From Rhynochetos jubatus (taxonomy: Eukaryota > Chordata > Aves > Eurypygiformes > Rhynochetidae): DNA of 64,000 bases. Position numbers and translations under genes: made by a program. Positions 3,656 to 33,851 of the stretch are shown in pieces. How positions within the stretch are numbered: the first letter of the stretch is position 1; each line of letters opens with the position of its first letter. Under the pieces are notes generated by a model. The model was not told the origin of the DNA. It ran no database searches and saw only the letters and a list, made by a program, of their open reading frames with translations. The stretch lies in NCBI GenBank assembly GCA_027574665.1, contig CM050672.1, forward strand, positions 7,052,001-7,116,000, in the 5' to 3' direction.

Positions 3656-3849
3656 ATAATTATCCTTTAGAAAAACGGGCTGGATGGATAGGTCAATTTA
3701 CTTTTTCCCCCATGTTTCATTGCCACACATGAAGGCTCAGAAATGCCAGGCGAGCGTGGCACCCGCAGCAGACGCCCAGTGCTCTCCCGAGCCTGGGGTG
3801 TCACACCCCTGCTATTTCCTAAGAGGCAGCAATGTGCCCACGTCTGCTC

Positions 3850-4242
3850 CGGGTTGGGTCTGCTCCCCAGCCTGGGGTCTGTTCCCTGGGTCCCGGTCTG
3901 CTCCCCAGACTGGGGTCTGCTCTCCAGATTGGGGTCTGCTCCCCAGACTGGGGTCTGCTCCCTGGGTCCCGGTCTGCTCCCCAGACTGGGGTCTGCTCTC
4001 CAGACTGGGGTCTGCTCCCTGGGTCCTTGTCTGCTCCCCAGACTGGGGTCTGCTCTCCAGACTGGGGTCTGCTCCCTGGGTCCCGGTCTGCTCCCCAGAT
4101 TGGGGTCTGCTCCCCAGACTGGGGTCTGCTCTCCAGATTGGGGTCTGCTCCCTGGGTCCCAGTCTGCTCCCCAGACTGGGGTCTGCTCCCAGGCTCCAGG
4201 TCTGCTCCCCAGATTAGGGTCTGCTCCCTGGGTCTGCTCCTT
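3850..4242. repeat. Minisatellite, 19-base unit
   Basis: About 390 bases are built from a 19-base unit close to GGGTCTGCTCCCCAGACTG, alternating with a variant unit containing GGGTCTGCTCCCTGGGTCCC. The mixture gives a higher-order pattern of roughly 57 bases. Because 19 is not a multiple of three, the array stays open in several frames on both strands, producing apparent low-complexity proteins that are not genes. It starts about 190 bases beyond the CR1 fragment. Confidence 0.93.
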
Positions 4243-6250
4243 GCGTGGGGGGACAATTGGGATCAGCACTGGCGTCCCTCGAGTGCGACAACGGGCACCA
4301 GTCCCCTCCCGAGCGCCGTGGCAGCCTCCCGGTGCCTGTGCCCAAACAGGGGGTGCTCCCAAGCTGAGGCAGGGGGCTCTGCCTGGGCTCACTGCCGTGC
4401 TGCCAGCCCGCATGGCTTTGGGCAGGATGAACCCCTCTTTGGGCAGCAGGTCCTGAGCGGGGACGGAGGGAGGTTCCCACACGACACAGCCCGGAGGAAA
4501 ACTCTGCCTGGAAAACAGGAGCTGGATGTTTTTCCAGCTTGAAGCCTAAACAAAAGATTTTGTAATAAGTGCATCCCCTGGCCTCTGCTCAGCGCCCGGC
4601 TCGGCTGTCCGTGGTGGCCGGCACAGCCCTCCCCATCCACCCCCCCACATTCCCAGACATTCCTCCAGTGCTCCGGGGACAGGGTCATGGGGTATGGCCC
4701 TGTGCTGTCACCACTGCAGGCTCCGTCCCTTTCTCCAGCAAAACGTGCCCCCCAGGAGACTGTGGGGACACAGGGACACGGGGACACAGGGACACGGGGA
4801 CGGCCCTGGCCGAGGGCTGGCGTCTCTAACTGAAATATTCTGCCTGTTCCGCACCGATTACCACTGGGCCTTGAACTCCAGGTCCCCAGTTTTGCTTGGC
4901 GAAGGGTCACTGGTGACAGGGACACCCACGGGAAGCTCCATGTCCTGCGGGGGGGCAGGGCTGGCCCTGGTGTTCCCGAGCCCTGGAGCCTGCGAAGGTC
5001 ATCGGCTCCTCCGTGCCTTTCCCAGCCAGTTCGCTCCCGGTGCTTTCCTGGCTGCTCCTGCCGCTCCTTCCCCTGACCCGGGTCCAGAAGCGGTTTTTCC
5101 CCTGGGATGGTCTGGGGCCCCCCGGATCCATCCCATTTGTCTCCGGGCAGCTGTCCTGGTGCAATCCGGGTCCGGTTCCCCGGGTCAGGGCAGCTCTGCC
5201 GGCTGGTGCCGCATCAGGAGAGCGGGAGACGCACATGGTTTGTGGGTGCAGGGGTCCAGCCAGGAGCAGGCGGGGAGACGCAGCGGGGGGGAGCTGGAAC
5301 CCTTTAAGGCAGCTTAAATGAGATACTCGATTGTGCTGGAAATTAGGAGCCTGGTAATGAGATCGTGGCTTCGGGTGGCAGCGCGTCGGCGTTCCTGGGG
5401 GTCGAAAGCTCTTTCTTTGTGACAAATACGGATGGCGCACGCGGGAACGGCGGGTGGCTCCCCGTGTCCCTCGGGACACGGCACCCGGTCCGCCGAGACG
5501 CGGGAACCCCGGGGGAGGAGGGGAGCGGAGCTGCGCCTTGGGACTCGCTGCCGCCGCCGCCACGGGGCTCACGGGGAACGGGGGTCTTGGAGTAATCTCC
5601 AGGAAAGTGGGGCCACTGGAATTCCCTGTGAGGCTCTCGGCTCCGAGACAAAGGAAATGTGGAAACTAAGAAAAAACATAAAAATTTCAAACTGAAGAAT
5701 CAAAGCAGCTGATTCAGCGATGTCGAAACGTCTTGTGACAGCACCGGACACATTTTTTCCAAACAAAATTCTGGGAAAATATCAGCCTGATTTTACACAA
5801 CCCACGTCCGTCTCGACAGAAAGGCACGTGGCTGGGGGGGCGGCGCGGGGGGCTGCCCGCAGCCGGGGCCCCACTGGGATGGGTACGGGGAACCCCGCGA
5901 CGCTGCGGAGCGCGGCCTCTCAGCGGCTCTGCCCCCACCGCGGTGCCGGCCCCGCCGAAACGGGGATTACAGAGCGCGGAGGAAAATCTGAAATCCAAGC
6001 CGGCAGCGCGAGGCCGTGGTTTATGGCAGCGTCGTGTCAGAGTTTCCACTGAACACCTCGGGCTTGCTGGGACCTCGCGTCAGCTCGCATCAATTAAATT
6101 GAATTAAAGAACGTAAACGAAAAGGCTGCCTGAAGAGCGTGCGCCGGCCCCTCGCCGGGGCGTGGGGGTGTGTGAGCCGCCCCACCGCGGCTGCCCGGCC
6201 AGAAAGGGTCCTGTATGGTACACAGCCCTGGGAGCAGCAGGGAATGGGGA
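4243..6250. other. Non-coding spacer
   Basis: No gene is recognised. A short GGGACACA/GGGACACGG tandem tract lies at about 4761-4800. A CpG-rich patch lies around 5430-5560 and 5850-5960, and AT-rich patches lie at 5640-5790 and 6085-6120. These may be regulatory, but I see no specific site that I can defend. Confidence 0.4.
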
Positions 6251-7359: not shown

Positions 7360-10330
7360 GGTCGCCCCCCACATCCTGAAACCCCAAGGAAATGCCGCTC
7401 TGAGGGAGAAGCTGGTTTCGCAGGCGTGTTTTGGCAGAGGGGTTGGGTGGAGGACGTGCACGGCGAGGGGGCGTGGGAGGGGGGCAGCTGCCACGGCACG
7501 GGCTGCCCGGCCGGGCAGGCTGCAGGCAGCAGCGCAGGCACCAGCCAGGCGCACGCAGACTCACCTGGGGTGTTGCTAAAAAGCTGGAAGAGGAGAGGAA
7601 ACGGAGATCAAAGAACCCAGCAAAACCAGGGAGACAGGATTTCAACTCCTGACATTAAAATAAAATGACTGTTAGGATAAACACTGCAAGGCCATTTCCC
7701 ATCCCGGGCAACCAGACTTGCTGGCGGGGGCGGAGGCCGGGGTTATGTTTCTTGGCGTTTCACACATGAGAAGTTTTCGCAGCAGCTCACAAATTTGCTG
7801 CCATCCCTGGGCAGCCGGGAGAGTGGCGGAGGGCGGCGCTGGTGAGGAGCGGTGCTGCTCAGCCCGGGGAAACGACGGGAAGGCCGGGGCGGTAACCTCG
7901 ACTGACCAGCGGCACCAGCTCGGTCAAGGGCACCGGGAGCATCTCGGGAGCTGCTGTCCCTGGGTGCTCCCACTGCTCCGGAGCCTGTTTCCACCGTGGC
8001 ACGAGGCCACGATGGATGCAGCGTGTCCGTCCTGCAGGAGGGCAATCACTGCTGTTGACGCTCCTTCTTGCAACTGGAGCCGCCGTGGGGATTCTTGCAG
8101 GTGGCGAGAGGAGAGCCGGGTGTCGGGGCTGGCGAACGGAGGGGCCGGGACAGTGGCGTTGGGGTGTGGGGGGAGAGAAGCTCCTGGACAGGGTCATGCG
8201 GACACGTCCTGCGGAGCAGTCGTTCGCTGCTTAAAACATAAACCACTGAGGAATGAACATCCGTGGGTTCAGACCTGTTTCCTCTTGGCAGCTCAGGCAT
8301 TTCTGGCCCACCCCATCCCCTACCCCAAATTTTGCCTCGGTGATGGGTCGTTAAGTGCTGAGGAAGTGGCTAAAAATGCTGCTGCGCTTGCTGTGGGGGT
8401 CTCGGAGGGAAGGGAGGACATGCCCAGCTTAGGGCAAGGTCAAGCCAGCTTTGAAGCCACCGTAGGGCTCCTGGCAGCTCCCCAGCGCAGTGGCTGCCCT
8501 AGTGCTGTCACGGGCTCGAGCTGCTCCTTGATGGCCTGCATCCCCCTCCACGGGGGTCCCCTTCCCCTGGAGTGCGTGGACAGGGGCTGGAGCAGCCCCT
8601 GCATTGCTGCGTTCACTGGGGCACAGGCACAGTGCTGGTGTGAGCACAATGGGCTTCAGCAGCACCGGGCTGCTCCGTGCCGCTGCTCTGTGCCGCTCCA
8701 TCACCCCGGCTCTCCGCGGGGACAATGGGTATGGGTACCCAGGAGGTCTCCAGGGCATCCCTGTCCCACACGTCCTGGCCTGTGGGATGGGCAGCAGCCC
8801 CCCGAGTGAGCTGCCCCAGCCCCTCTGAGCACCCCCACCCCAGAAGGCTCTGGCCCTGACCACAGCTCATTATAATTAAGCCGGTGACCCCAGCACGAGG
8901 CTGGAAGTTTAAATGTCTGCGGTTGATGGCCACTTGCCCGCAAATTCCCCGAGATGGGAATCGCTCTCTGCGGGTCCCTCCAGGCTTAGCAGATTGCTTT
9001 GCAAAACACCCGCTGCACTAGAAAACGCTGTTTCTGCGCAGGAGCTGCGAGGGCAAAGCGGCATCTGAGCCCTGGAATCCGGGAAAACGCCGGCCGCTTC
9101 CCACCGGAGCTGACGTGTCCCTGGAGCGGGGCTGCTTCGGCTGCCGGGCCGGCACGCGTCCCTTGGGGACCGATGCCCTGAAGCTCCCGCAGCTCCCTGG
9201 GGCTCGCAGCCCGCATTCCTCCCGGGGGTGTCTGGGCAGATGCTCCGCATCCCGCACCAGGATCCGGGTGCGAGAGGCTGTGCTCCGATCGTGGCATGGG
9301 CCGGGGCTCACGTGGCAATTCGGACCCTGCACAGCCTCACCCCTGCCGCTGCGCCTGCGCGGAGACCCCGGGAGTGGGGGTCCACACCCTGCCCAGCGGC
9401 TGTTGGCGCGGCGAAGGGGACAGGACCCCCCACGCGCCCCAGCTCCGGCCCTGGGCTCTCGCCTTGCTCCATCTTTTGGCTCTCAGGGATGGCATTGCTG
9501 CTGCCCCCCAGGCAGGCCACCGTCCCGCCGGGAAGAGGAGGAGGAGAGGGGAAGAAGAGGGGAAGAAAAAAATGAATCCCCACAAAAATGTCTTCATAAC
9601 AGGAAACGTCTCATAAAATACCTGTGGTTTGGCTTGTGTGATCCGACTGGTCAAACTATGCACCTGGCAGGCAACCCTGCTATTACTGCTGCGCGCAGTC
9701 TGGTATTTCGGTGGAGCTGAGGCTGGCGGGGGGGTGGGGAGGACGGGACCGGGGAGCTCAGGGCACAGAAACCCTCTGTTGGGGCCGGGGCGAGGGGTAG
9801 GACACGTCCCTTGGGTTTTACTGCCTCTGTGTGTGCCCAGGGGACATCCCAACTGTGTTTCGGCGGGGATGCCCTGGGATGCAGTGAGCTGCGTTCAGCC
9901 TCGCACCCCAGGCAGAAACACGACGTTTCTGCAGTGTCAGGCCCGGGTTTTCCACCCAGACCCGTGTCCAAGGCAGTGCAGACCCAAAGGTCTCTGTCCA
10001 GGTCTCCAAATGCCACGGTGCCTGCCAGTGCCCAGGAGGTGGCCTCACCCCTGTGGTCACCCTCAGCTCCGGCCACGGCCGGGCGCGTCGGCAGCCATCA
10101 GTCCCGGGCTCTCGGGTGCTCAGCGGAGGAGTTTTGACAGCTGGAGGTGAGGGATTAAGCCCTGAGCTGTGACCTGCGGCAGGCTCACGCCTTGCTGCGC
10201 TCCCGGCACTCACACGCGGAGGGTCATTAATCCGCCTTAGCTGATCCCTGACCCGGCGGCTGCGGGATCAAGCAGCGGCACGGACCCTGTTGTCAGCACC
10301 ATCACTGGACCACGGGCTCCTCGGCTATGG
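7360..10330. other. Non-coding spacer
   Basis: Open frames of up to 363 codons (7718-8809, plus strand) exist but have low-complexity, Gly/Ala/Arg/Pro-rich translations without recognisable domains, and frames on the opposite strand are open too. Around 9600-9720 the base composition becomes more balanced, and the stretch contains a RUNX-like TGTGGTTTGG. This could be a conserved non-coding element upstream of COL8A2, but that is only a guess. Confidence 0.4.
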
Positions 10331-11390
10331 TCAGCAAGCCCCGTGGGCAGCATGTACCGTGGGCACTGTGTACAGTGGTCAGTGAGCCCCGTGGGCACTG
10401 TGTACCGTGGTCAGTGAGCCCCATGGGCAGCGTGTACCATGGGCAGCGAGCCCCGTGGGCACTGTGTACCGTGGTCAGTGAGCCCCGTGGACAGCATGTA
10501 CCATGGGCACTGTGTACAGTGGGCAGTGAGCCCTGTGGGCAGCATGTACCATGGGCACTGTGTACAGTGGGCAGTGAGCCCTGTGGGCAGCATGTACCAT
10601 GGGCACCATGTACCGTGGGCACCGTGTACTGTGGGCAGTGAGCCCCATGGGCAGCATGTACCATGGGCACTGTGTACAGTGGGCAGTGAGCCCCATGGGC
10701 AGCATGTACCATGGGCACTGTGTACAGTGGGCAGTGAGCCCTGTGGGCATCATGTACCATGGGCACCGTGTACCGTGGGCACCGTGTACCGTGGGCAGTG
10801 AGCCCCATGGGCAGCACGTACCACGGGCAGCGAGCCCCGTGGGCAGCATGTACCGTGGGCAGCGAGCCCCATGGGCAACATGTACCGTGGGCAACGAGCC
10901 CCGTGGGCAGCATGTACCATGGGTAGCAAGCCCCATGGGCAGCGAGCCCCACTGGCACCATGTACCATGGGCAGCGAGCCCCGTGGGCAGTGTGTACTGT
11001 GGGCAGCGTGTACCGTGGGTAGCGAGCACCATTGGCAGCGTGTACCGTGGGCAGCGAGCCCCATGGGCAGCGTGTGCCGTGGGTAGTAAGCACCATTGGC
11101 AGCGTGTGCCGTGGGTAGTAAGCACCATTGGCAGCGTGTACCATGGGCAGTGAGCCCCGTGGGCAGCGTGTGCCGTGGGCAGCATGTACCGTGGGTAGCG
11201 AGCACCATTGGCAGCGTGTGCCGTGGGTAGCGAGCACCATCGGCAGCGTGTACCGTGGGCAGTGAGCCCCGTGGGCAGCGTGTGCCGTGGGCAGCATGTA
11301 TCATGGGTAGCGAGCACCGTGGGCAGCGTGTACCGTGGGCAGCGAGCCCCATGGGCAGCGTGTGCTGTGGGCAGCGTGTACCGTGGGCAC
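10331..11390. repeat. Large minisatellite of 16-base modules
   Basis: About 1.06 kb is made of roughly 66 modules of 16 bases. Most are of two kinds, GTGGGCAGCGTGTACC and GTGGGCAGCGAGCCCC, often alternating to make a 32-base unit, with variants such as a CACCATTG-containing module more common in the second half. Both strands are nearly free of stop codons, so several overlapping frames of 180-330 codons appear, all with repetitive His/Gly/Thr/Cys/Pro-rich or Gly/Ser/Val/Tyr-rich translations. I interpret it as non-coding tandem DNA. Confidence 0.95.
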
Positions 11391-13109
11391 CGTTCACCAC
11401 ACAGGTGCCCACCATGGCCAAGTGCCGGCCTGGCACCACGGCAGGGCATCACCCGTGCAGTGCTGGGGCAGGGTGTGGTTGCCGCACGCTCCGGGCTCTC
11501 TGCACGTCACAGACGGCTCAGGCGTGTCAGGAGGCGAGTCAAGACAGGGAGAAACACCCCGGTCGGTGTTGCAGCGCGCTCTTCCGCAGCTGCCTGCAAA
11601 CCAGCTGGTTTACGGCTGGCGGAGCGAGCAGACCCCGGCATCCCACCGCCCCGTGTTGTTCACCACGGCCCCACCGGCCCCCACAGCGCCAGCGTCTCTC
11701 CTGTGTCACCCCGAGCTGCACGCCTACCAGCTGGCCCGTGGCTACCAAAGTGGCTCAGCCCGTGGCCTTGCCTGCAGCCCTCCAGCCCCCTGGCTGCCCC
11801 CGCAGTAGTCACTAACGCAGCAGGAGTTAATTAGCTTGGAGCCCCCAGCCTCGGAGTTAATTTGGCCGCAACCCCTGCCTGGACCGGAGCAATACAGTCG
11901 GACGCAGCCACCCCCGTGGGGCTGTGCCACACCGTGCCGTGCCGATGCCGTGGCCAGGCGCCGGGGCGGCAGGAGGCTGCCTGCAGATGGGGTGGGGTGT
12001 TTTTCTTTCGTCAAGGAAAATGTTTTCTTGTTCCCTCTGCTGACGGGCGGGCGAGGCCCGGGCCGCGCGGCGCGTACAGCAGCTCTTGGATCGGATCAGG
12101 TGTCATGCGTTTAAGGGCCGACCTGTGCCAAGACTCTCCCCGCGCGCTCCGGCGCGGCTCAGCCGAGCTGCTCCCTGATGCCTTTTGGCTTTCGCAGCCC
12201 AGCCTACGGAAACAACGTGCTCGCTCTCCATCTCAATAGCTCACTTTTCGTTTTTGACTCGTTTTATTATTATTTTTAAAGCATGTGTAGTGCAAACCAA
12301 ATCATCCACCTCCCCCTGGAGTCGGGCCAGCCCCGTGTTGGGCTTGGAAAACCTCCCTGCTTTATTTTTTATTGTCGATGACCGGGGGATGGAGCCGCTC
12401 GATGGGACGCAGCAGCGTCCAAACCCGCCGCCGCTCCAGCCCACCCACGCGCGCCGGCTGCCTTCTCGGTGCTCTCCCTTCGCGGCGTCCACCCGAGCCG
12501 GGCGTGCGCGGCGCTCACCGCTGCTGACCGCGGTGCGGGATGGGGACAGGGACAAGGACGACGGGTGAGCCTCGTTGTAGGGCGCCGAAGGCCCCATCCT
12601 GGCTCATCCCTGTGCCCCAGCAAACCTCCCGTGGGGGCTGGCGTGGCCACGGGTTTGGTGTGGGGATGGAGCCGGGACGGGGGCCAGCACGCCGCTCCCC
12701 GCACCGATCCCGCTTTTACTGCCGGGTTTAAACACGTTCTCCCTTTTCCTGACCTTTGACCGCAGGCGCAGATCCCCTGTGGGTCACGTCTATTGACTTA
12801 AAAGCCTGGAAGGGAGCAGGCGCGGTGCCTGCCAGGCCCATAATTAATATGGAGAGAACAGGGGCCGTAAATCACTGCGGCTCAGTGCAGTGTGCGGGGG
12901 GGGGAGCGTGCGGCTGCGTCCCTCGTGGCAAAGTTGCCCACGCCGTGGGCAGGGCAGTGCCGGGAGCTTTGACGTGGATAATGCAGGGAGAGGGTGCTGC
13001 AGAGTTGGGAACGGCCGGGAGCACGCCGGGAGCGCGTCGGGCCGCCCAGCACAAGCCACGGGCTGTTTGTGGAGCGGCGCAGGGGGACACACGTTTGCCC
13101 CCAGAACAA
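11391..13109. other. Non-coding spacer
   Basis: No gene is recognised. The composition switches between CpG-dense sequence (about 12045-12080) and AT-rich islands (about 11995-12025 and 12235-12305). The contrast resembles conserved non-coding elements, but no specific motif supports that. Confidence 0.4.
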
Positions 13110-15854: not shown

Positions 15855-18800
15855 GTAAGGGACGGGCACTGGGGGGATGGAGGGAGGTCATGGGGCTGTG
15901 GATGCCTGGGAGACCTGCCTGCATGGTGGGAAGGGGCCGGAGCGTCCTGCAGCCATCAGGCACTCACCATCCCCTCGCCCTCGGGGTCGGCGCCCCCGGG
16001 GAGCAGCCTGGCACAGCCGGGGGTGCTGCTGTCTAATGCACCTTTGGCCAAGCACGGAGGGGCCGTTTAGGTCTCCAGAACCCAGCGCAGAAAGACGACG
16101 ACGGGCACAGAGAGGCTCAGCAGAGCCGAGCCCTTTGCTCAGGCCGGGGCTGGGTGAGCACCTTTGAGTGCTCACTCTGGGTGCTGGCACACAAAGGGGA
16201 CCCACGAGCCCTTTGTTCTCCTCCTCCCTGCCCGCACGTTTGCGGGTACCTTTGAGGCTGAGCCCCAGAAGCGCTGGCGCTCCCTGTCTCTCCCTCTTGC
16301 TGCTGTTAAACCTGAGCCATCCTTGTAAGGCTTTTCCCACTCCTCCACCTATTCCCTCCTCCCTGCCTGCGTTTTGCACCAGCTGGGAAAGGAAAGAGGC
16401 CCAAGACCCAGCCTAGCGAGGGAAGAGCAGGAGAGAGACATTTCCTCCCTCAGAGAGCCGTGACCAGGAGCTCCACACGTTACATCACTCTCCACCGGGC
16501 AGCATGTGCCGGGCAGAGGCGCTGAAGTCACTGCTCAGTGCAGATAGGCCTCCTGCGCCACATCCAGCCCCAGCCTGCCCTGCCTGCACACTGTCATGCC
16601 CTGCCCTAGCTGTCCCATGTGCCTGCCCAGGGCTCCTTTTATTCCCAGCCCTGGCTGCAGGTGCTGAAGGGTAAAAGGCACCTGGGAGGCCCATCAGTGC
16701 CCCACATCAGAGGCAATTAGTGTGTGCTAATTGCACACACCCTGGGGGACTGCTCAGCAACTGGGGGTCTTTGCAAACACCAAGCCTCAAGTGTGACCCA
16801 GGTTCTCCATCACTTTTTGACTCGGCTCTCTGCCAAGTGGGCCCCGGCATCTCCCCGAGGGGCATGCGACCCTCGCGGCTCCCAGGGCAGTGGCACGGTA
16901 CCCTCCTCTCAAACAGGGGGTGAGGGGAGGGTCTGAGCCCTCTCCTTGACACCAACCCAGCAGTCCCCAACACTTCCCAGAGCCAGGTGCTGCTGGCAGC
17001 GCTGTGGGACGGGGCAGCGCTGCGGCTCAGGTGCCCAGACCCCCCGGGTTGGTGCTTGGCCCTTGGGAAGAGCCGCTGGAGCCCTCCCCGTGGGTTCACA
17101 CAGACCCCGACCCTCCAGGGAGCCGAAGTTTTGGCTCCGGGAGGAGAAACCAGAGAAGGCTCGGCTGCTGGTGGCTGATTTACTGCTGGGCTGAATGGCT
17201 TATCAGGAGTTCAGCTCAGCACATATGTCAGAAATCACACAGCAAAACCTGGAGCCGAAGCACGCTACGAGCCCCCCCGCCTCCCTGCCCCCTTCCCAGC
17301 TGTTGTAAAGCTGCTCCCTGAATCCCAGCCAGAGACAAAACCTTCCAGCGTAGCACAGGAACGTTTCAGCTGCTGGTGGGACTGGGTTCAAATATCTCCC
17401 TGCTGGTTTTCCTCCTTTTTTTCCCCCTTCTTCCTATGCATGGGAGCAGCTCGCGCTGCCTCTGAGCAGAGCTACCTGCTAGCCGTGGCGGAGAGGGGTG
17501 CTGAGCTCTTCGCAAGGTGGGGTTTGGGTGCGAGCTTTGCCAGGCTGGAGGAGTGAGAGGAGACGGAGGCAGGGCAGAGCACGGGAGTCCCCTGGACATC
17601 ACTCCTAAAACCCCTGGGAAAGGGGGATGCAGGCAGGGGGATGCAGCCTGAGCCACGGAGGCGGCTGTGGAAGCCGGTGCCTCCCAGATCCCACCGAGCT
17701 CCCATCCCTGCTTAACCTCTAATTTGGCAAGGAAAATCCCTGCTGGCCTTCTGCCCTGCTCGGGGAGCTCAGCTGACTAGCCGCGACGGCGCAGGGCCGT
17801 GCCGTGCCCCTCCGGGTTACCCCCGAGCCGGCGGGGAGCAGTGCGGGGCCCCCCGTGCTACCCCAGCCTGGCCGTGGGGCTCGGATGCTGCCTGGGGGGC
17901 CATGCCAGGCCCCTGAGGCTCCCTGTGGGTGCTACCTAGTGCGATAGGCTCGTTTCCTCAAGGTGCCAGACACCTCTTCCGACCCCAAACCAGACTCCCC
18001 GGGAGCACAGAGGCAGCTCGGGGCAGAAGCTGCTGAATGCTACAACGCTGGAAGCATTTCAGCAGATACTGGCACAGCTGGGTTTCACTTGGGCTCGGTT
18101 AAACCATGTCCATGCAGCTGGCAGCCAGGTAACGCTGCCCTGGGTGCTGGCTGGGGCTCGGGGAGCCCAGCATCTCCCCGTGCATGCAGGGAGCCCAGCC
18201 AGCACCCCCCAGCTCAGGGCTCCGATATGGCACAGGCGATGGGGGGACAGGGGTCGCAGTCCCCTCCAGCGACACCCCGGAGGGTCACCCCAGGGAGCAG
18301 CCTCAGCTGCAGAGGTACAGGAGCGCTTTTCACTGCCCCAGGCTTGGGCGAGCTCAGCACAGAGCCTGGGCTGCTGCTGCCCTGTGTCCCCAGTCCCCGT
18401 GGGGCTGTGGCACGTGGCTGAGAGGCCTCCAGGTCCCTCGGCTCCTGCTAACGGGGAAACGTTGCCGCTTCCATGCTTCCTTCCGCAGCCCGCTCTCATC
18501 TCGCTGCCAGCCCTTTGCACGACGGCTCCGTCTGCCAGCGCTAGGGCTGCACTGAGCCTCCCTGGGCGGCTTGGGGCACCCGCTGCCACGGAAGGTGGGA
18601 TGAGATGTCCCATGCGATGTCCCCGTGAGCCTGTGCAACTCGCTCTCACGAGCCAGGGCTGGAACAAGCCACGGAGCAGCCAACCTCTCCCTCCTGTAGT
18701 GTCATCCAGCCGCTGCTGATTGCTCGCAGCCGGGAGCCTCTTCCCATCTTGCTGGATTATTCCTCAGCTGGCCAGTCCATGCTGCTGGGTCCCTCCTCCA

Positions 18801-25999: not shown

Positions 26000-27000
26000 G
26001 GTCTGAGCTGTGCCTTTGTCCCCTCAGCCTTGCCGCTGGCACCCGCCAAACAGACCTCCGGCACCGTGCTGCCTTCTCAAATCCTGCCCGGCAGATTTGC
26101 CATCAGAGGGCACTGCGTGTTTCTTGTGATGAAGATTCCTCTCCCCAGAAGGTCATTTTAAAAAAAGGATAAAATCTGGACCCTTCCAGACTGGCCATTA
26201 CTCATTTGAGGAATTTGTCACGTGTTGGGGGTTCCCCTTCCCTTTTTTTGGCCGTGTTACACACCCGTGTCTACCCGGCGCAGCGGAGGCAGCTGGTGCA
26301 GCAGCATCCACCCGAAACGGCGCATCACCTGCAGGCAACTCCCTTCCAGAGGCTAAAAGGAAAAGGAACAAAGAGAAGACCATGTGGTTTCCCACCTGAT
26401 CCCTTACCTGGAAGGCTTGTTACAGGTGAAACACGTCCAGAATCCTGGCCGCCACCCAGGTGGGCTCCGTTCAACAGCTGTGAGGAACCAGCGCTTCTCC
26501 CGGTGCGAGACACTCCCTGGATCCCGCACGAGCGTCGCACACCAGACTCCAGCAGCTGAACTCCTTCCACGCGCCGCTCCTCGCTGCAAACAGCCTACAA
26601 AGCCACAGCCAGCAAGGGAAAAGGGCCTCCCCAGCCAAATCCCCTGCGACACGCCCGACGGATGCTCCCGACTCTGGCAACGAGAACCGCTGCGGGAGGG
26701 CTTTTACGAACGGCGGCCGCCTGGGAGCGGTTTTCACAGCACATTTCCAGCGCTAAAGCTCCCCCCAGGAGAGGCACGAGCCGTGGCTCCAGCCAGGATG
26801 TCTCCAACCAGCACCCAACTTGCTTTCTGCCCCAAGACTTCAAGCAGCCGTAATAAAGCGGTTTGAGGCTGAGGCTTAACGCGAAGTTCGGGGCGGGGAG
26901 GAAAAGCCCAGAGGTTTTCATAGGATTCCTCTTGGCATTTAAGTATGGAAGCACAACTTCAGGGCTGGAATGAAAAGATGGGAGCAGTGGCTAATTAACA
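26000..27000. other. Convergent intergenic spacer
   Basis: About 1 kb separates the inferred 3' ends of COL8A2 (+) and ADPRS (-). It holds open but unrecognisable frames on both strands and a further plus-strand AATAAA at 26852-26857 that could serve read-through COL8A2 transcripts. No repeat was recognised. Confidence 0.5.
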
Positions 27001-31700: not shown

Positions 31701-33183
31701 ATCTGCTATCCAGAGGCTGGGCTGGATCAGAAGTGTGGCCAGCAGGGCGAGGGAGGGGATTCTTCCCCTCTGCTCTGCTCTGGGGAGATCCCCCTGCAGT
31801 TCTGTATCCAGCTGTGGAGCCCTCAGCATCAGAAGGGTATCGACCAGTTGGAACGAGTCCAGAGGAGGCCACGGAGATGCTCCGAGGGCTGGAGCCCCTC
31901 TGCCATGGGGACAGGCTGGGGGAGTTGGGGGGTTCAGCCTGGAGAAGCGAAGGCTCCAGGGAGGCCTTAGAGCCCCTTCCAGTGCCTGGGGGGCTACAAG
32001 CAAGCTGGGGGGGGGGCATTTTATAAGGGCCTGTAGTGACAGGACAAGGGGCAATGGGTTTAAACTGAAAGCAGGGAGATTGAGATATCAGGAAGGAATT
32101 CTTCCCGCAGAGGGTGGGGGGCACTGGGACAGGTTGCCCAGAGAAGCTGTGGATGCCCCATCCCTGGGAGTGTCCAAGGCCAGGCTGGGTGAGGCTGGGA
32201 GCACCCTGGGCTATGGAAGGTGTCCCTGCCCATGGCAGGGGGTGGGAACTGGATGATCTTTAAGGTCCTTTCCAACCCAAACCATTCTGTGATTCTATGA
32301 CAAGCGGGACTAGTCTCGTTCTCCCGGAGTTCACAGCGTACACTGACGAGCGGGGAAGAGAAAGCACAGTTGTGTTTCTGGACAAGGCGACAACAGAATC
32401 AAGTGCCGTTAAGATCCTACTGGAAGGGTTTACGGGGGTTTGCTGCACCCCAACTCGAATCTATTATCGTTCCTTAATAAATAACCGTTCTTGCGCTTCT
32501 TACTCCACCCCGTATCTATTTTTGGTACATCTGTCCCACACTGACACCCCTGCACTGCGACACCCCGGTTCCCAGCACACTACACACCCCCCCCCCCTTC
32601 ACTCCAGCGCGAGCAGCAGAGACTGAGCGCAGCAAACCACACACCCTGGGGGTGCCTGAAACTGGGACCTGCTTCAGCACGGGTTACCCTCACCCCATGG
32701 GGGGGGGGGGGGCACCCCACAGCACAGAAGGGCACGCCAGGGGGGTGTGGGGCCAGCCACGGGTGTCCTAGGGGAGATGAGGGGCTGGACTAGGGGCACC
32801 CACACTCCGGCGGGGGGGGGGGGGGGGGCTGTGGGGTGGCGAGGATGGGGAAAGGGGGACGCACCCCGGTGTTGGGGGGCCGGACGCAGCGGGTATAGTG
32901 AAGGGAGTGCGCTCCAGGCCCGCCCCCCCCCCCCGTCCCCGTGCCCACCTCTACGGGCGCTGCCGGCCTGTTCCCCGTCATCGGGCGGGCCGGACGCCGG
33001 TTCCAGGCCTTGGAGGAAACGGAGTAGATCGGATAGCTTCACGACGCTCCTGCCTTCGAAAACGGCGCCTAGGCAATCACCCAACAACGCTCCGGCTAAA
33101 CAAGCCCGGAACCGGGCAGGTACCGGCCGAGGCCGAGCCGCCGCTCGCCCCGTGCTTGAACCCGAACCCGTCGCCGCCGCCAT
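28776..33183 (-). CDS. ADPRS: ADP-ribosylhydrolase ARH3 (ADP-ribosylserine hydrolase)
   Basis: This enzyme removes ADP-ribose from serine after DNA damage and also degrades poly(ADP-ribose) and O-acetyl-ADP-ribose, using two Mg2+ ions. It works in nucleus, cytosol and mitochondria. Six exons join in frame: 33183-32949, 31450-31354, 30531-30324, 30213-30029, 29679-29579, 29068-28776. They give 372 residues (human 363), all with GT-AG introns. Metal ligands are visible as Y-T-D-D-T (T84, D85, D86) and G-G-D-T-D-T (D322, D324, T325), plus the E in A-V-F-E-G of exon 1. The fingerprint FNGKGSYGNGGAMRV is in exon 3. The N-terminus is Ala/Arg-rich without acidic residues, compatible with mitochondrial import. 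The start ATG has a strong context (GCGAAGATGG). It is the first in-frame ATG, although the frame stays open upstream to about 33405. COL8A2 is convergent on one side and TEKT2 is upstream on the same strand. Confidence 0.97.
29698..29977 (+). mobile_element. CR1 LINE 3' fragment in ADPRS intron 4
   Basis: The sequence carries the sense CR1 tail: CAGGAAGGAATTCTTCCC, GCCCAGAGAAGCTGTGG, CCCATGGCAGGGGG, CCTTCCAACCC and a terminal ATGATCCTATGAATG. It is antisense to ADPRS. It fills most of the 349-base intron (29680-30028) and begins only about 18 bases from the exon 5 acceptor. It closely resembles the copy at 31725-32300. Confidence 0.92.
31725..32300 (+). mobile_element. CR1 LINE 3' fragment in ADPRS intron 1
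   Basis: A longer 5'-truncated CR1 tail in sense orientation begins near GGATCAGAAGTGTGGCCAGC, includes the sequence giving TCTGCTCTGGGGAGA and CCAGTTGGAACGAG, and ends in the typical CCATTCTGTGATTCTATG. It is antisense to ADPRS. It shares a stretch of about 64 identical bases with the copy in intron 4. No intact ORF remains. Confidence 0.93.
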
Positions 33184-33186
33184 CTT

Positions 33187-33282
33187 CGCCGGCGCCTCTG
33201 CACCTCCGGGCCGCCAGGGGGCGGTGTCCGCGGAACCGCGGACACCGCCCCCTGGCGGCCCGGAGGTGCAGAGGCGCCGGCG
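33187..33282. repeat. Perfect 47-bp inverted repeat with 2-base spacer
   Basis: The arms 33187-33233 and 33236-33282 are exact reverse complements, separated by AA at 33234-33235. The inner arm ends read GGTGTCCGCGG and CCGCGGACACC. The palindrome begins three bases upstream of the ADPRS start codon (33181-33183), so on the minus strand it occupies the immediate 5' UTR or promoter. Each arm contains a full match to the CTCF core consensus. It is either a genuine structure or a fold-back assembly artefact. Confidence 0.97.
33211..33258. promoter_or_regulatory. Pair of CTCF-consensus sites in the palindrome
   Basis: CCGCCAGGGGGCGGT at 33211-33225 (plus) and the same 15 bases on the minus strand at 33244-33258 match the published CTCF core (CCRSYAGRKGGCRSY) at every position. 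Because the sites lie on the two arms, they face each other, 18 bases apart. Binding is inferred from the motif alone. Confidence 0.6.
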
Positions 33283-33283
33283 C

Positions 33284-33851
33284 GTGCTCGGAGCACGTTG
33301 CCGTATTTCCCTACTTAGAGGAAAGGAAAGCGTCGCCTTTTTTTTTTTCCCTCCCTTAAAAATGCAGTCGGAGCGCCAGGAGTCATAATCCAGGCTGTTT
33401 TCCACTGGGTGCGGTTACTCAGCATCACCTCCCACCCCGGGGGGGGGGGGGGAAGAAGCAGCAGCCACGTTCTGATCCGGTTGCTGGCGCAATAAATCCA
33501 TCCCCGAGCGCTCGGCGAGTTGGGAAGGTGCCTGGGACAGGAACAAACTGAGGGCAGAATGGAAAACGACAGGTTTGCGGTCACAAGAGCCGAGGGCAGA
33601 CTCCCAGCTCTTTTCCTTTTGGGCTAGGTGGCGAAGCGGGAAACCCCAATCCCAAATTTTGATTAAAAACTGAACGGATCGGAGGTTGTACCCCCCCCCC
33701 CCAACAGGGCAGGCACGATGCCACGCAGCCCCTTTTCGGAGCGCTGCCTTGCACTTGAAAGGACTTCAAACGCTGAGGAGCCCAGATGGATTCAATCCCC
33801 ACAACACGCTTCCAGCGCCGTCAGATGGCAACTGCTTTTGGGGACACGTTT
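33284..33851. other. Spacer between TEKT2 3' end and ADPRS 5' end
   Basis: About 0.57 kb separates the TEKT2 polyadenylation signal from the palindrome at the ADPRS start. It should hold the ADPRS promoter. Two long homopolymer runs (33439-33452, 33691-33702) lie in it. No TATA box in a convincing position is seen, which fits a CpG-type housekeeping promoter. Confidence 0.5.

Follow-up and report, generated by a model that had tools for sequence, protein, structure and literature searches.

A perfect 47-base palindrome beside the ADPRS start codon in Rhynochetos jubatus, a possible template-switch copy of a TISU core promoter

Introduction

Template switching produces perfect inverted repeats, which in great apes have a median length of 12 bases and a maximum of 128 (PMC7954356), and template-switch patterns of up to 59 bases, with an excess of 4-base loops, have also been described (PMC8794818). 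Palindromes as such are well catalogued in human, where 783 of 100–200 bp are listed (PMC7680136). Two types of promoter element are also relevant to the locus analysed here. The TISU element, with its core AAGATGGC, lies at +5 to +30 from the transcription start site and is bound by YY1; in 64% of TISU genes the start codon falls within the element, and the median 5′ UTR of these genes is 12 bases (PMC2518114). Double CTCF sites, labelled 2xCTS, include pairs of 58 and 33 bp and linkers of 30–40 bp, with variable spacing also mentioned (PMC4562119).

Here we analyse a stretch of 64,000 nucleotides from Rhynochetos jubatus, hereafter the window, in which a perfect palindrome lies beside the start codon of ADPRS, and compare it with these systems.

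Results

The ADPRS locus

The gene at the palindrome lies on the minus strand and begins with the following exon.

32949–33183, minus strand: coding part of exon 1 of ADPRS (ARH3), open over its 235 bases, with GTGGGC following as donor

The frame that starts at 33183 encodes the N-terminus of ARH3; it matches 11 distinct PDB sequences, every one of them ARH3, at E values down to 2.3e-12. Tektin-2 lies further up on this strand, where an exon fragment of 49 residues at approximately 35.6–36.0 kb hits tektin-2 chains with a best E of 5.6e-13. The opposite side of ADPRS carries a C1q-domain collagen (E 2.8e-40), which we take from its position to be COL8A2. The gene order agrees with that of the human locus. 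ARH3 has a mitochondrial role. The observed/expected CpG ratio is 1.06–1.22 across 33001–33400. A literature search under the name ADPRHL2 found among the matches listed no paper joining the gene with a promoter or palindrome, and no report on the gene together with CTCF.

Two other stretches of the window are repetitive. At 10302–11506, minus-strand frames are open and internally repetitive, with ORFs of 332 and 343 amino acids full of HGTRCP-like repeats, and the stretch is probably a tandem repeat, not a gene; at 3660–4545, several frames are open and carry GLLPRLGSAP-like repeats.

A perfect palindrome of 47-base arms

The palindrome consists of two arms around a two-base centre, and a second, much smaller inverted repeat directly follows it.

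33187–33233, plus strand: left arm, 47 bases, with an outer end CGCCGGCG and an inner end CCGCGG that are each self-complementary
33234–33235, no strand: centre AA, two bases
33236–33282, minus strand: right arm, exact reverse complement of the left arm
33283–33297, no strand: small inverted repeat CGTGCTC-G-GAGCACG, with 7-base arms and a one-base centre, adjoining the outer end of the right arm

The initial annotation described a perfect 47-bp palindrome whose left arm ends three bases from the ADPRS ATG, and both statements hold: 47 of 47 bases pair between the arms with zero mismatches, and 33184–33186 separate the left arm from the ATG at 33183–33181 on the minus strand. Once the strand folds, the loop is 4 bases long. 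In a scan for perfect arm pairs at centres with spacers of 0–30 bases, covering the window except its first and last 50 bases, no other pair has arms of at least 11 bases; with spacers of up to 50 bases, the second-best perfect pair in the window has 14-base arms and lies at 18142–18207. Under an assumption of independent bases, the expected number of 47-base arms per 64 kb is 5e-22 at 57.7% GC and 7e-19 at 72% GC, and chance does not explain the palindrome. The arms are 85% GC.

A single-stranded DNA fold of the 151 bases around the palindrome reaches −89.4 kcal/mol (z −15.65) and also shows the 33283–33297 inverted repeat as a hairpin. An RNA over 33310–33160, which crosses the whole palindrome, reaches −137.5 kcal/mol (z −13.91). 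Across the whole window, Rfam gives no match at the gathering score and ARAGORN no gene, and we discarded a known structured RNA or tRNA as the identity of the palindrome. We likewise discarded a mobile element or a local repeat, since an arm matches the rest of the window in nothing longer than one 14-base stretch and no outer direct repeat is visible by eye. An exact 25-base string from the arm has no match in viral contigs, a result with no bearing on birds.

An exact TISU element and the predicted transcription start

The start codon of ADPRS lies in a TISU element that shares one base with the palindrome, and the bases upstream of it contain a candidate initiator.

33176–33187, minus strand: TISU element GAAGATGGCGGC, containing the ADPRS start codon; its first base doubles as the outermost one of the left arm
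33199, minus strand: predicted ADPRS transcription start, the A of TGCAGA, an initiator of the form BBCABW, which would give a 16-base 5′ UTR
33270, plus strand: mirrored copy of the initiator, matching BBCABW

With both strands scanned against the 12-letter consensus, whose core AAGATGGC is as given in PMC2518114, GAAGATGGCGGC is the only exact TISU match in the window. It contains the invariant AAGATGGC core, and the ATG inside it opens the exon 1 frame of ARH3. Both TISU and ATGGCGGC overlap starts that are rich in alanine, which makes chance matches more likely. The position rule of +5 to +30 places the expected start of ADPRS transcription at approximately 33191–33216, inside the left arm.

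The initiator consensus is BBCABW; the 44 bases that precede the ATG contain a single pyrimidine–purine step that fits it, with the A at 33199. An RNA beginning there folds at −29.0 kcal/mol (z 0.43), no better than shuffled sequences. The initial annotation had posed a dilemma, in which either transcription starts inside the palindrome or a stable hairpin before the start codon hinders translation. We favour the former on sequence grounds, given the exact TISU and the initiator 16 bases upstream, and disfavour the latter, given the TISU rule and the unstructured RNA; with a start inside the left arm, the 5′ UTR of 16 bases would carry no hairpin and the puzzle largely dissolves. As for the mirrored initiator, a coding role of a transcript from it was considered and rejected, as the first ATG past 33270 opens just 8 codons.

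CTCF-like sites on both arms

Each arm also carries a CTCF-like site, in which a GC-box core is embedded.

33208–33226, plus strand: CTCF-like 19-mer scoring 18.7 bits; GC-box core at 33219–33224
33243–33261, minus strand: CTCF-like 19-mer scoring 18.7 bits; GC-box core at 33245–33250

Scored with the JASPAR matrix MA0139.1 (maximum 26.0 bits), these two 19-mers are the best in the window at 18.7 of 26.0 bits, and they face each other across 16 bases. Within them, CCGCCAGGGGGCGGT occurs once per strand, at 33211–33225 (plus) and 33244–33258 (minus), which bears out the earlier description of two facing CTCF-like sites 18 bases apart. The accompanying statement that the sequence fits the CTCF core consensus at every position goes too far: the third base of CCGCCAGGGGGCGGT is G, a minor base where A dominates in the matrix. 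The next-best CTCF-like site in the window, at 26097–26115, scores 17.7 bits with the same matrix.

Random 19-mers reach 18.7 bits in 1, 2 and 8 cases per 4 million at 50, 58 and 70% GC, and the p-values of the sites rest on these counts of matches. GC-rich promoters yield CTCF motif matches by composition. At 85% GC, a reading of the sites as Sp-type is as good as the CTCF one, with the GC-box cores carried by the same bases. Relative to the predicted start, the inner CTCF-like site lies approximately 9–27 bases upstream and the GC-box core of the minus-strand site approximately 46–51 bases upstream. The inner site would overlap the core promoter, where a bound CTCF would compete with the basal machinery.

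Discussion

Proposed origin by template switching

We lean slightly towards the view that the palindrome is a real, young mirror copy of a TISU/CpG-island core promoter made by template switching. During DNA synthesis, the growing strand would have folded back where CCGCGG AA CCGCGG forms a GC-rich, self-complementary centre, used 47 of its own bases as a template and afterwards switched back to the original one. The outcome would be two mirrored core-promoter blocks, each with an initiator, a GC box and a CTCF-like site, beside a TISU start codon. ADPRS transcription would then begin within the left arm and yield an mRNA with a 5′ UTR of approximately 16 bases and no hairpin, and TISU would drive expression through YY1 and scanning-free initiation. 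The outer arm would supply the GC box at approximately −46 to −51, the second CTCF-like site and the mirrored plus-strand initiator.

Several observations are consistent with this origin. A perfect inverted copy lies beside its source, the flanks beyond the two arms differ, as expected from a there-and-back switch, and the scarcity of arm matches elsewhere in the window argues against a local repeat. Both arm ends are self-complementary, a combination that arises in a fraction of 0.00081 when the arm is permuted 200,000 times; singly, such ends arise in 0.019 and 0.053 and are common in sequence this rich in GC. Judged from their sequence, the self-complementary ends would suit a there-and-back template switch. 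The predicted 4-base loop of the folded palindrome is as in the loop excess of described template-switch patterns (PMC8794818). Against this reading, 47 bases is far above the class median of 12 (PMC7954356), the palindrome is known from one assembly, and no other zone of the window has G/C runs as long as the 10 bases or more seen around the site. Zero mismatches in 47 pairs limit the age of the palindrome to less than approximately 13–27 million years (95%), provided that the arms have not been homogenised. This limit is computed with mutation rates of 1.2–2.5e-9 per site and year.

Alternative explanations

The main rival to the template-switch reading is an artefact, which we regard as possible though short of probable: the animal would carry either a single arm or an inverted repeat with imperfections, which library fold-back, consensus building or polishing would have turned into a perfect palindrome. 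The surroundings lend this some weight. All seven G/C runs of at least 10 bases in the window (lengths 10–17) cluster around the palindrome within 32007–33702, approximately 1.7–1.9 kb, where runs of 7–9 bases are absent, and in the other 62 kb no run exceeds 9. The arms are rich in GC, their zero mismatches suit a copying product, and chimeric fold-back reads are known at inverted repeats and palindromes, although the chimeras described there arise from repeats that are already genomic (PMC10908179). A simple fold-back, however, would read flank, arm, arm and the same flank again, whereas here the two outer flanks differ, so that two false joins are needed; compound artefacts remain compatible with this layout. 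Furthermore, the window contains no N, exon 1 of ADPRS is open and there is no second such palindrome in the window. Of the fold-back chimera at a hard-to-sequence site raised in the initial annotation, the difficult patch is thus borne out by the cluster of long G/C runs, and the simple fold-back is contradicted by the two different flanks.

Four of the runs, at 32587, 32699, 32812 and 32923, are spaced by 112, 113 and 111 bases. A tandem duplication behind this spacing was considered and dropped: the overall identity at that offset is outside the top 12 offsets, and an array of this kind is absent from the Tandem Repeats Finder output.

A selected and maintained double CTCF element of the 2xCTS type, acting as an insulator or promoter platform at ADPRS, seems unlikely to us. 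The best CTCF score of the window is present on both arms, and there is precedent in the TP53 promoter, whose two palindromic CTCF sites, conserved from mouse to human, are occupied together in EMSA (PMC4562119); several birds, chicken not among them, have BORIS/CTCFL (PMC5871936, PMC7471279). Like such an element, the locus has two close CTCF-like motifs, of 18.7 bits each, but the second is a copy of the first and hence no independent evidence, the lone site at 26097 comes close to their score, and at 70% GC approximately 8 per 4 million random 19-mers do as well. The spacing of 16 bases is also tighter than the described examples of 33 and 58 bp and linkers of 30–40 bp (PMC4562119). The strong insulator proposed earlier has its motif score in its favour and no further support, with a gap below the described spacings and an inner site that would overlap the core promoter.

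A further conjecture, to which we give rather little credence, is that a single template switch made a symmetric two-way promoter, with a minus-strand initiator at 33199, a plus-strand one at 33270 and a facing CTCF pair built in, in which TISU alone would set the translated direction; supercoiling of the promoter could then extrude a cruciform with a 46-pair stem, by which the start and both CTCF-like sites would be exposed or hidden at once.

A palindrome that serves as a hairpin in the ADPRS 5′ UTR and represses translation is very improbable: the RNA that crosses it is highly stable directly before the start codon, but the TISU position rule and the initiator place the start within the left arm, and the RNA from there shows no unusual structure.

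Implications

If the palindrome is real, one mutation has duplicated a promoter block on the spot, and its tolerance is explained, as a TISU gene starts so near its ATG that the hairpin stays outside the mRNA. The locus would then offer a clean natural test of a mirrored promoter and of a tight pair of facing CTCF-like sites. Otherwise, it flags a promoter that is difficult to sequence and at which assemblies can be misleading.

Comparison with known systems

Similar to template-switch inverted repeats, the palindrome has perfect arms, a very short spacer, unique flanks and GC-rich self-complementary switch points (PMC7954356, PMC8794818). Its 47-base arms are long for a class whose median in great apes is 12 bases, with 128 as the upper extreme (PMC7954356), and it differs in sitting on a predicted transcription start. 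In length, it is in a class similar to that of the human palindrome catalogue, which allows four mismatched pairs and whose longest members are AT-rich, whereas the ADPRS arms are 85% GC and perfect save for the AA centre (PMC7680136).

As with TISU promoters, ADPRS has the AAGATGGC core with the start codon inside the element, and the very short 5′ UTR of such promoters is expected here too; the mitochondrial role noted above for ARH3 is also found among TISU genes (PMC2518114). The sequence upstream of the ADPRS element is mirrored, and no such mirrored TISU promoter appears in the portion of PMC2518114 drawn on here. Compared with the 2xCTS in the TP53 promoter, the locus likewise has two opposite CTCF motifs inside a promoter, but the ADPRS sites are predicted from the motif, lie 16 bases apart and are identical copies that one duplication would have made (PMC4562119).
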